Positions 49,501 through 53,700 of a DNA stretch of 64,000 nucleotides are shown piece by piece (positions within the stretch are counted from its first letter, which is position 1; every line of letters begins with the position of its first letter). The DNA lies in assembly GCA_964036295.1 (NCBI GenBank), contig OZ038462.1, forward strand, positions 25,121,863 to 25,185,862, in the 5' to 3' direction. This stretch comes from Plumapathes pennacea. Lineage: Eukaryota; Cnidaria; Anthozoa; Antipatharia; Myriopathidae. The position numbers and the translations under genes were made by a program. The notes below the pieces were generated by a model, which saw nothing but the letters and a program-made list of their open reading frames with translations, did no database searches and was not told the origin of the DNA.

Positions 49501-50053
49501 AAATGTATTTTGTCAACAATTACAGATCAGCCGTTGCCATTGTCGTCTGCGGCGTGGACCACTAAACTACTCACGGGTAACAAGCTTACTTTGTTTACTT
49601 ACATCATGCTTTGAATTTCACTTTGGAAGCATGGCTTCAAGAGAGGCTTGGTTCCAACGCTCAATGGACTTGGAGCTGGTGTAGGTGGACGAACCTCAGC
49701 ATTTGCCGCCGCTTGCTGCCCTCGATCGAAAACAAACCGGAAATAAACGGGTGATCTTACAGATACCTTGCATTGCTTTCTTTTACACACGAGATAAAAA
49801 TATAAGCGATATTCTTAATGTTCGTCATATAATCTGATCGATGGCCTACGAGCACTCCAGGAACACGTCTGAAATACAACTGTACGTGCCACATTGCCGA
49901 AATCCAAAATGGCGGACATAAACTCACGAGCAAAAACAAGCATAACAGAACATACTGCAACAGAAAGTTACCCTGTTGTCGCTTGAGCATGCAGTATTGG
50001 ATCCTTCCTTCGTCTTATCGATCTTTTTACCCTTGGGCTTTGACTTTGTCATG
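43563..50053 (-). CDS. SUPT3H: Transcription initiation protein SPT3 homolog (SAGA histone-fold subunit)
   Basis: Exons, 5' to 3': 49972-50053, 49603-49720, 47645-47729, 47284-47370, 46415-46517, 45557-45625, 45340-45401, 45024-45099, 44705-44820, 43941-44249, 43635-43745. They total 1218 nt, in frame throughout. SPT3 is the SAGA subunit with two histone folds that helps load TBP at promoters. The first fold is clear: CFQSEIQSMMYAFGD, then [33 protein letters not shown]. The second is in 44705-44820 plus 43941 onward (FSYLAYETVGQIVDLALLVKR). A Ser/Thr/Pro-rich segment and a basic KGKKRKAK patch follow, then IQPYHIREALRRY. The last exon ends at a good donor (TCA/GTAAGT, 43635). Either a tiny terminal exon was missed, or it is read through to the stop at 43563, adding 23 unrelated residues. 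The gene is head-to-head with RUNX. Confidence 0.93.
45816..46346. mobile_element. MITE with TACAGTCGAACC ends, split by a nested element
   Basis: Ends TACAGTCGAACCCTGCTATTTC / AAATAGCAGGGTTCGACTGTA. Its middle is interrupted by the hairpin MITE at 45880-46210. A close intact relative is at 32248-32426. It is in a SUPT3H intron. Confidence 0.85.
45880..46210 (+). mobile_element. Hairpin MITE, third copy, nested
   Basis: Same structure and near-identical words as the copy at 33966-34303 (CCGTGCATAAAATCCATACG, CTCACTCGCGAAGCGCTC). It is inserted inside the MITE spanning 45816-46346. Confidence 0.85.
46590..47284. repeat. AT-rich TTAGTTATTA minisatellite in a SUPT3H intron
   Basis: About 690 bp of TTAGTTAATAGTTATTAGTT and TATTATACCTTG units. 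It runs directly up to exon 47284-47370, so its last unit holds the donor site CACCTTG (minus CAAGGTG). Confidence 0.92.
47795..48062. mobile_element. Degraded relative of the 43211 MITE
   Basis: Shares GTGATTGCTTTGGTTTTGC, AAATTTGGCAGC and CTTGTAATTGG with the element at 43.2 kb but lacks clear ends. It lies in SUPT3H intron 2. Confidence 0.6.
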
Positions 50054-50770
50054 CCTCCCTGTAAAACGAAGCGCGAACACGACCGCGTGCCACTCCAACC
50101 GGAAGTAGTAAAGGTTTATTGTTCCCACAATCCTCGTGTGAAAAGCGCGCGAAAGTTTGATGCACAAATAAATTCGAGAGGTTCACAAATGACACTAAAT
50201 GACAATAAATGACAATAAGCAGATCAGACCTCTCAGATTTCGACAAAGTGACAAAAAAAGAGAATAATTTTGGTCACTTTGAAATTTCCCATGTTGTGTT
50301 TTGTCAGCTGGATTTTGCTGAGGAAAACAAGGGGAACTTGTTACAAATCAAGCGTGAAAGGGTCGACCTGTTTGTATGTGGACGTTTGTTGACTATGAGG
50401 GATCCACGTGTCGTGCAGTTCCGCTAATTGGCTAAATTGCCGCGTCCGCGTTTTACCTTGTCACTGATCGCTGCGGACACAACAGACCACAGGAACGCTC
50501 GAATTCTCCGGAGAATTCATTGGAATGTGCGCGCCGTGTGTTCATTGGACCTTTGCCATTCGGAGGCGGGATGCGTAGTTTACACGCGCATTATGATTGG
50601 CGCACAACGCACTTCCTAAAACGCAAACAAGGTTTTGCACAACAGATGTCAAAACTCGCTGGGGAGTGGTTGGCCAAAAGCATTCGTATTCTTTCACTAT
50701 CCGGTTGTACGCAACACTTGCCACACTTGATTCTGGTGGGCTCTTCTTGTGGTTTACACATTGGAGTACC
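50054..50770. promoter_or_regulatory. Shared SUPT3H / RUNX bidirectional promoter region
   Basis: These 717 bp separate the start codons of two divergent genes. Four inverted CCAAT boxes (ATTGG) occur at 50427-50431, 50519-50523, 50544-50548 and 50596-50600, a pattern common in bidirectional promoters. RUNX core sites lie at 50748-50755 (TGTGGTTT, 16 bp before the RUNX start codon) and at 50486-50491 (ACCACA on the plus strand). I see no clear TATA box. The ATTGG boxes and both RUNX-type sites are read directly; promoter function is inferred from position. Confidence 0.65.
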
Positions 50771-53700
50771 ATGACCACTGCCACAGAAAACTCAGGACCG
50801 CGAAAAATTAAGGGAGAGAGATCACTTATTGAAGCGTTAGCAGAGTACCCAGGCGAGTTAGTGAAAACCGATTCGCCAAACTTCGTCTGCAGCGTGTTAC
50901 CGTCACACTGGCGATGCAACAAAACGTTACCAGTGGCATTCAAAGTAGTATCGTTAGGCGATGTGCCCGACGGAGTTGTCGTGTCAATAGCGGCAGGTAA
51001 TGATGAAAATTATTCCGCTGAACTGCGCAATCACACGGCTGTCATGAAGAATCAGGTCGCCAGATTCAATGATCTCAGATTTGTTGGAAGAAGCGGAAGA
51101 GGTGAGACGTGCTTCTTCTTGTATTTACACACACTCTTGCTTTCTGACGGTAGTAATGCCTAAAGACATTGTTCGAGTCCACAAACAGCTGGCTCAAATC
51201 AACACGCACGAAACCCGCTGCAGTGTCGCGAGTTGCTTTGTAAGTTACGATATTTTCGTCTCTCCACCTGTGAACAGGGAAGACGTTTACATTGACAATC
51301 ACAGTGAAGACTGAGCCACCTCAAGTTGCGACGTACTGCCGAGCGATTAAAGTCACTGTCGACGGGCCTCGCGAACCAAGGCGTAAGTTCTTCTCGAAAT
51401 ATATTCTTTATTTTTTTGTCCATTTACAACCAATTTCCAGCCTAACCAGGAACATTCAGACTGTCTATTAAAGAGGCCCATATCCTTTCTGTTTACAGTT
51501 ATTTTTTTGGTCAAACATGTCCCTAAAAATTGTTACAGAATTTCTACTTGTTTGTGTGTGTGTTGTAAAATTCTGATTCTACAGTTGATTTGATTTGGAA
51601 AAATTAATTCGAAATCAAGAGATAACTATAGAGGGTCTCATAGTTCTATTTAGTTTTTATTATCAGCCAATACTGCCAACCGCAACAAAATAGCGGTGCT
51701 GCAAACGCTGAGACTTTTCCGAGTTTCGCCACAACGGCTGACTTTAGGAAAAACTGCCTATGCTACAATAAAGATTTGTGGGTTTTCTGGAAGCCATGAG
51801 TGTCGAGATGTGTAGCGATTTTGTTTTGAATTTTAAATTTCCTAGTCTCACCGCAAGTAAACAGACGCAATGTTTAGGCAAATAATGCTATTCCCGGCTT
51901 GTGCTTGCAGAGAAAGCTTGCTTGGCAGGTAATCACTTAGGCGATATGCCGGCAAATTATTAATGTTTAATTAGCGATTAATGATTCATCTAGCAGCTTG
52001 TAGGCATTGGTCCGAATGATAATTGAATTGATTATGATGCATTTGTGAGCTCCATACAATACAGGTGCAGGTGGAAGGGCAGGTGCTACATCACCTGTCA
52101 ATTTTACAAATGCATTTGTTAATTTAATAACATTTCCATTTCTACTTAATTACTGCTAAATAATCTGATAAAAGATATTAGTCCCAAACAAGAAGAAATT
52201 GCCTTGCTCATCAGAAGAACTTAAGAACTCTATTTTATTTATTTATTTATTTTTTTTTTTTTTTTCAAATTGAAAGCAAATAAAGAAGTTTTAATATTTT
52301 TTGCTAACACTTCTGATACAATCAAATTGGTTTCCCTCTCCAACTACTTTGAGCCATGTGGTTGGCAATTAGGTTTTTACTTTGGCCCCTTTATCAGATT
52401 CAGGGAGCCTTGGCAGTTGAAATCTACTTTGGTCTTCTAAATTTAATTAGGCCAGTAATCAGATTTGCCTCCAATATTGTCTTGCACTGACTCATGATTG
52501 GATTGCCAAGAGTGTGATGTTGCTTTTAAGGGATAATCAAATAGCCTTTCTATACCATTGCTGCACCTCAGTCAATAGCTTGGAAATATTTTCAAATATA
52601 TATTTTTAAGCGAGATGTACAGAATCAAGAGAATACTAACACAGGGCATTTTGTATACATTACACATGATATATAGCCACCAGTATATACACATATAATA
52701 AGTCAGAGTAACACGGATGCTGTGTAGATGTTTTAATAATAATTTTTGGTTTGCCTGAAATAGTTATTTGAAATATGATCCTTTTTTCTGTGAATTAGCT
52801 TTTAAAAATGTCAAGGTATTATCGCTTATTTAAATGAAAATCATTCCTTATTGGTTTTTACTTTATTTAATTTTTAATCATTTTGCCCACATTGCACACA
52901 TGATGGCATGATATGGAAGAAAAGTAGAAATTGTAAGACTATCTTCTGTGAGTCAAGAAAGATTGTTTGTGCTGTGGTGTTGTCAAATATCCTCCCCACA
53001 TCTTCACAACTCCTGTTTAGTCATATTATTTCCCAAAGATCATTGTGTGGTTCCCCTTGGTTCAGTTAATACGAAAACCCAAAGGGTGTTGCCCATTGTG
53101 AAACCACATATCTTAGTTGAACATTAAACCTCTTGCAACTTTTGCAGTTTTCTTGAGCAATTTTTACCCTCAAACCACAGACAGTTACAAACAACACAGA
53201 ACGAGTGAAGGGTAACAATCACCCAGTACATTCAAACCACCAGGTTCATTTTGGTTCAATTTCATGTGACCAGAGATACCTCAATCAAATAGCAGTCTCT
53301 TATAAAGAAATCAGAATGCATATGTATTAATTTCACCACATATAGCATGGGATGGTTAGAAAACTTGTAGAGGGCTACCTCTTTGAGTGAGGTTGATTCC
53401 AGGCTTTCTTTGTTTATAAATTGTAGGAACACCACACCTGTTTCAAGTTTATAATTTATAGTTATGCTAATTTGAATTTACATTTCTGCATTTAGTTTAG
53501 AAGAATTCAACATCTTCTAGAGTGAAAGATGTAATCTTCCTATCTATGATTGGACCTGAAAGCCTTGAGTGGCCTAAAAGTTGACTATCTTTGAATTAGT
53601 ACTCAATTCACAGTTAGTAAAAGCAGTGTGCATGAATCCAAATGTTTCAAGGTGTCCTGGTGCATTGTATCTCCAGCCCTGGCTGTTTTAAAATCAAAAG

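Follow-up and report, generated by a model that had tools for sequence, protein, structure and literature searches.

An apparently ancient head-to-head RUNX–SUPT3H gene pair in a hexacoral-like cnidarian

Synteny of Runx and Supt3h has been reported in the sponge Amphimedon, Nematostella, Branchiostoma and the annelid Capitella (Robertson et al. 2009, PMC2674455), and the linkage has been termed ancestral (Nah et al. 2014, PMC4236176). SUPT3H is described as a bystander in the human RUNX2 regulatory block, in a report that also cites the human–sponge linkage (Harmston et al. 2017, PMC5585340), and the interlocking of RUNX2 and SUPT3H has been dated within the vertebrate line (Glusman et al. 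2004, PMC533870). Nematostella Runx has four exons, a 105-bp second exon and a VWRPY end (PMC2527000), and RUNX sites regulate vertebrate RUNX P1 promoters (PMC4762634, PMC3974841). Here we describe the RUNX–SUPT3H pair in a 64-kb window (the whole stretch of DNA analysed), which corresponds to positions 25,121,863-25,185,862 of contig C1 in a 290 Mb assembly of 24 contigs. The ancient linkage is already published, and the window adds one well-supported further species. RUNX, on the plus strand, and SUPT3H, on the minus strand, are immediate neighbours with their 5′ ends together, and their coding exons do not interlock:

43097..50052, minus strand: SUPT3H, twelve coding exons, 418 amino acids, TFIID-18kDa domain at residues 57-145
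50053..50770, no strand: head-to-head gap, 718 bp from ATG to ATG, a probable bidirectional promoter
50771..55862, plus strand: RUNX, four coding exons (50771-51101, 51278-51382, 54260-54463, 54988-55862), 504 amino acids
SUPT3H exons 1-6, minus strand, GT/AG borders: 50052-49972, 49715-49603, 47729-47645, 47370-47284, 46517-46415, 45625-45557
SUPT3H exons 7-12, minus strand, GT/AG borders: 45401-45340, 45099-45024, 44820-44705, 44249-43941, 43745-43635, 43141-43097

Exon borders of both genes were picked by hand from reading frame, GT/AG dinucleotides and similarity, without RNA, and both models line up with other anthozoan proteins at their first and at their last residue. The RUNX coding exons (331, 105, 204 and 875 bp, all with GT/AG borders) match the published Runx gene structure, which has four exons and a second Runt exon of 105 bp (PMC2527000, PMC2674455). 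The Runt domain is complete at residues 21-147 (Pfam PF00853, E 1.7e-70, profile positions 3-129 of 129) and is identical to that of Nematostella Runx at 124 of 131 aligned positions; the product ends in VWRPY, which includes the WRPY Groucho motif, and the top match among solved structures is RUNX1 (4l0y, E 3.7e-78). A Runt search of the whole assembly returned two matches, corresponding to the first two exons of the RUNX gene described here, and the assembly has a single Runt-domain gene. Scans of viral and prokaryote genome contigs with the first RUNX exon and the stretch upstream of it found no relative, as expected for an animal gene.

The SUPT3H product matches TFIID-18kDa (PF02269, the SPT3 histone-fold domain) at E 1.4e-27, and the human SPT3 homolog (8h7g chain E) in two stretches at E 9.9e-76. 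It aligns through its C-terminus with the proteins of six other animals, the 45-bp last exon included. From these family and structure matches there is no real doubt about the predicted identity of either gene, and the head-to-head RUNX and SUPT3H named in a preliminary description of this DNA are both borne out. That description placed the RUNX start correctly at 50771 on the plus strand; it set the SUPT3H start on the minus strand at 50053, which is corrected here to 50052, so that the gap grows from 717 to 718 bp. The borders it drew at 49972 and 51101 fall at the inner end of the first coding exon of SUPT3H and of RUNX, respectively. As a separate observation, SUPT3H intron 4 contains a TTAGTTA-rich minisatellite near exon 4 (46592-47272).

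The preliminary description had made the age of the pair depend on a non-bilaterian source, not one of the vertebrate lineage, and the SUPT3H tree now supplies this. Among its 26 rows the window protein, 15 named cnidarian proteins and 3 further rows are split from the other 7 with support of 99/97, which places the genome in Cnidaria. Porites is nearest by path, and Oculina and Pocillopora are the next named rows; the tree is rooted only at the midpoint, and it does not fix the placement within Cnidaria. SUPT3H identity is 56-64% to named hexacorals (at least 85% query cover) and 47-51% to three octocorals. By these protein comparisons the source genome is that of a hexacoral-like cnidarian.

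Linkage in other species was examined by comparing the size of the longest contig recorded for the RUNX and the SUPT3H protein clusters, using the best 120 rows per search and leaving vertebrates uncounted. Five invertebrate species were named with a contig size for both proteins, and in four of them the longest contigs are equal in size:

Montipora capricornis: 74,745,055 bases
Acropora muricata: 30,066,574 bases
Acropora digitifera: 344,634 bases
the octocoral Xenia: 16,714,500 bases

Equal size stands for the same contig by inference, says little about distance where contigs span tens of Mb, and comes from clusters that may mix species. Read in this way, the sizes suggest that RUNX and SUPT3H are linked in four of the five species compared, and the linkage in A. 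digitifera would be close, since its contig has only 344,634 bases. A protein search with RUNX residues 175-504 returned 9 proteins and no extra named species for this check.

It is virtually certain that RUNX and SUPT3H form an ancient conserved pair. Chance adjacency is not a reasonable account, because the linkage is reported in sponge, anemone, lancelet and annelid (PMC2674455). The proposal that the pair predates the cnidarian–bilaterian split holds, and it is not new, as the literature already extends it to a sponge (PMC2674455). Taken overall, the best explanation, which we hold with good confidence, is a head-to-head Runx–Supt3h pair that dates back to an ancestor early in animal evolution, and it is reasonable to suppose, with the preliminary description, that the simple layout seen here may be the ancestral state.

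The DNA between the two start codons (50054-50770) has one match in the assembly, which is itself, and TATAAA is absent from both strands of the gap (50053-50770). The gap lies in a block without CpG depletion, as measured by the observed/expected ratio (o/e):

48401..51600, no strand: CpG-undepleted block, o/e 0.96-1.27 in 400-bp windows

Without interruption this block covers the first two exons of SUPT3H, the gap and the first two exons of RUNX, and it takes in about 1.2 kb of SUPT3H intron 2. In 400-bp windows the flanking o/e is 0-0.28 at 47.6-48.6 kb and 0-0.33 at 52.0-53.2 kb, with mixed values (0.56-0.98) at 51.4-52.2 kb. In 1-kb windows, most of the SUPT3H body has an o/e of 0.10-0.44, but values rise to 0.79-0.87 at 45.5-47.0 kb, such that the contrast is imperfect. 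In invertebrates, high CpG next to depleted gene bodies usually marks DNA that is unmethylated in the germ line, as is typical of promoters. The spacing of 718 bp between start codons and the single CpG-undepleted block are compatible with a bidirectional promoter, in which divergent starts lie less than 1 kb apart.

Within RUNX itself, the o/e of intron 2 at 52001-53500 is 0.16-0.18 in 1-kb windows, a strong CpG depletion that suggests methylation in the germ line inside a developmental regulator gene. RUNX-type sites are dense in the same intron (5 where 1.44 are expected), a feature that was spotted post hoc.

A stretch abutting the RUNX start codon is conserved in a protein record, P0132, which is an unspliced frame with a Runt domain identical to that of the window RUNX at 129 of 131 positions:

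50642..50770, plus strand: conserved stretch of 129 bp next to the RUNX ATG, noncoding by the gene model, from the P0132 comparison

In translation, 40 of 43 residues of this stretch are identical to P0132 without a gap. Exon 1 shows one difference from P0132 over about 110 codons, and the 129 bp are nearly as conserved; the next 11 residues upstream fail to align. Intron 1 of P0132 (residues 172-219) and RUNX intron 1 of the window (51122-51216) gave no match at E up to 10, and the last 61 bp of RUNX intron 1 fall in a second, weaker P0132 stretch that is joined to exon 2. As controls, two other unspliced frames over exon 4, P0127 and P0130 (73% and 71% identical), lose similarity at the exon border or within about 31 bp of it, and may come from other species than P0132. 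Judged by this comparison with one protein, the 129 bp, which lie on the RUNX side of the gap and are the only conserved noncoding stretch seen, are under constraint as 5′ untranslated region, as promoter or, less likely, as coding sequence.

The RUNX frame is open upstream of the ATG back to 50597, and the open stretch is conserved in P0132. A coding N-terminal extension upstream of 50771 was nonetheless not adopted, as the open stretch has no in-frame ATG. Four other anthozoan RUNX proteins with N-termini closely similar to this one also make an extension less likely, since those of Porites, Montipora and Acropora muricata start at the same place and that of Nematostella begins one residue later.

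Three motif positions in the gap are of note:

50747..50754, plus strand: RUNX-type site TTGTGGTT, starting 24 bp before the RUNX ATG, within the conserved 129 bp
50485, minus strand: second RUNX-type site, from the motif scan of the gap
50099..50106, plus strand: CCGGAAGT, which we take to be an ETS-type site, about 47 bp before the SUPT3H ATG, single and not enriched

The scan took in eleven motif patterns, and for this reason no enrichment was counted as evidence. YTGTGGTY occurs twice, and at least as many copies were seen in 22 of 1266 sliding windows, in 9 of 589 GC-matched windows and in 18 of 1000 shuffles; plain TGTGGT also occurs twice (reached by 94/1266 windows and 93/1000 shuffles), as does the published RUNX form [AGT]ACC[AG]CA (82/1266 windows). 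Five CCAAT boxes are present, all on the minus strand (52/1266 windows, 21/1000 shuffles), with no occurrence of the full NF-Y consensus in the gap, and CCGGAA is found once (259/1000 shuffles). The number of RUNX-type sites is near chance, and motif enrichment was rejected as an argument.

We consider a shared promoter the likeliest mechanism, and give an even chance to its being what keeps the pair together; it was proposed in the preliminary description, and fits the 718-bp spacing and the single CpG-undepleted block. Both genes would start from one compact promoter region, and splitting it would damage either the gene for a SAGA subunit or that for a developmental regulator, so that the pair would stay intact. 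RUNX-controlling elements that spill into the first SUPT3H introns may contribute.

Several points weigh against an inherited pair bound by its promoter. The shared promoter is putative; other CpG-undepleted stretches occur in the window, and the segment 50001-51000 ranks 5 of 127; and the RUNX and CCAAT counts in the gap are only weakly raised, with full NF-Y consensus sites missing. In the sole comparison, that with P0132, conservation stops short of the SUPT3H half of the gap. On the side of inheritance, the contigs of Branchiostoma belcheri are unequal (3,724,039 and 24,254,466 bases), perhaps because two assemblies are involved, and lamprey Runx genes are described as unlinked to Supt3h, such that the linkage is dispensable (PMC4236176).

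The alternative that survives best, which we hold tentatively as possible, is a genomic regulatory block, in which RUNX enhancers lie within SUPT3H introns and SUPT3H is a bystander unable to leave. This is how SUPT3H is named for the human RUNX2 block, where the human–sponge linkage is cited as well (PMC5585340), and the best enhancer candidate here would be the CpG-undepleted part of SUPT3H intron 2 (about 48.4-49.6 kb), the segment of about 1.2 kb by which the block enters that intron. The published RUNX form also matches twice in SUPT3H intron 2, where 0.94 sites are expected. However, motif counts are near chance, and the sole noncoding conservation seen lies next to RUNX. In the preliminary description, the genes were suggested to be held together by a RUNX regulatory element located in SUPT3H or close to it, which is the same idea as that already published (PMC5585340); in the window such a conserved element inside SUPT3H is hypothetical.

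The wider neighbourhood bears on a second alternative, that slowly rearranging anthozoan genomes simply keep old neighbours and that nothing functional binds the pair. Cnidarians and sponges are generally known to retain gene linkage over long times, and a CDC5L-type gene (Myb_Cef family) is still present on contig C1, 2.97 Mb from the pair, as large-scale linkage alone would leave it; the vertebrate counterpart is a neighbour of RUNX2, and in human, CDC5L adjoins SUPT3H (PMC533870). Against this, the CDC5L-type gene lies megabases away here, and of three CLIC-like matches, none of which reaches the family cut-off, two fall on other contigs and the third is on C1 at a distance of 6.1 Mb. Retention of the tight pair while the CDC5L-type and CLIC-like genes lie elsewhere points to a local cause, of which the shared 5′ region would be the simplest. 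Linkage of the pair has moreover been reported for sponge, cnidarian, annelid, lancelet and vertebrates (PMC2674455), and we regard neutral retention as unlikely. Independent joining of the genes in cnidarians and vertebrates, for which the placing of RUNX2–SUPT3H interlocking inside the vertebrate line (PMC533870) might speak, is given next to no weight in view of the later sponge, anemone, lancelet and annelid reports (PMC2674455, PMC4236176) and the contig-size matches found here.

The genes nearest the pair in the window are a DNAJ-type chaperone gene and midasin:

38839-42310, plus strand: DNAJ-type chaperone gene, presumably DNAJB13-like, read by eye and convergent with SUPT3H
34808-35761, minus strand: midasin (MDN1) exon, Midasin AAA lid domain E 2.5e-17

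Within the DNAJ-type gene, lying between its exons, is a 254-bp tandem unit (40961-41495; 2.1 copies, 99% alike), each copy of which carries a tRNA-Thr (GGT) gene on the minus strand. Further away, 9339-17568 is occupied by an 8.2 kb satellite array, in which a 94-bp unit is repeated about 87 times and which is also visible as a low-GC stretch.

The neighbourhood of RUNX and SUPT3H, which involves a developmental regulator, has been reported in animals from sponge to human, and the compact cnidarian pair, with its 718-bp gap and a conserved stretch by the RUNX start, is a handy test of a promoter versus a hidden enhancer. Compared with the invertebrate Runx–Supt3h synteny described (PMC2674455, PMC4236176), the genes are likewise adjacent or linked, with a four-exon Runx and VWRPY in the cnidarian gene. 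The available text of those papers gives neither distance nor orientation, whereas in the window the layout is resolved as head to head at 718 bp.

As in vertebrate RUNX P1 promoters (PMC3974841, PMC4236176, PMC4762634), a RUNX-type site is present just before the RUNX start. P1 promoters have tandem RUNX sites, whereas the site in the window is putative, is not one of a tandem pair and belongs to a near-chance count; the lamprey is also described as having no tandem pair. One can imagine, though we think it quite improbable, that the 129 bp with its RUNX-type site is an early-animal form of the self-regulating vertebrate P1 element, placed in a promoter shared with SUPT3H, such that RUNX feedback would also tune a SAGA subunit and this dependence would have kept the pair together since before the sponge–cnidarian split.

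A close parallel in layout is jawed-vertebrate RUNX2–SUPT3H (PMC533870, PMC3974841), where the genes are also in opposite orientation with their 5′ ends together. In human RUNX2 and fugu FrRUNT each first exon lies inside the first intron of the other gene, whereas the coding parts in the window do not overlap; untranslated first exons of RUNX and SUPT3H may interlock here as they do in vertebrates.

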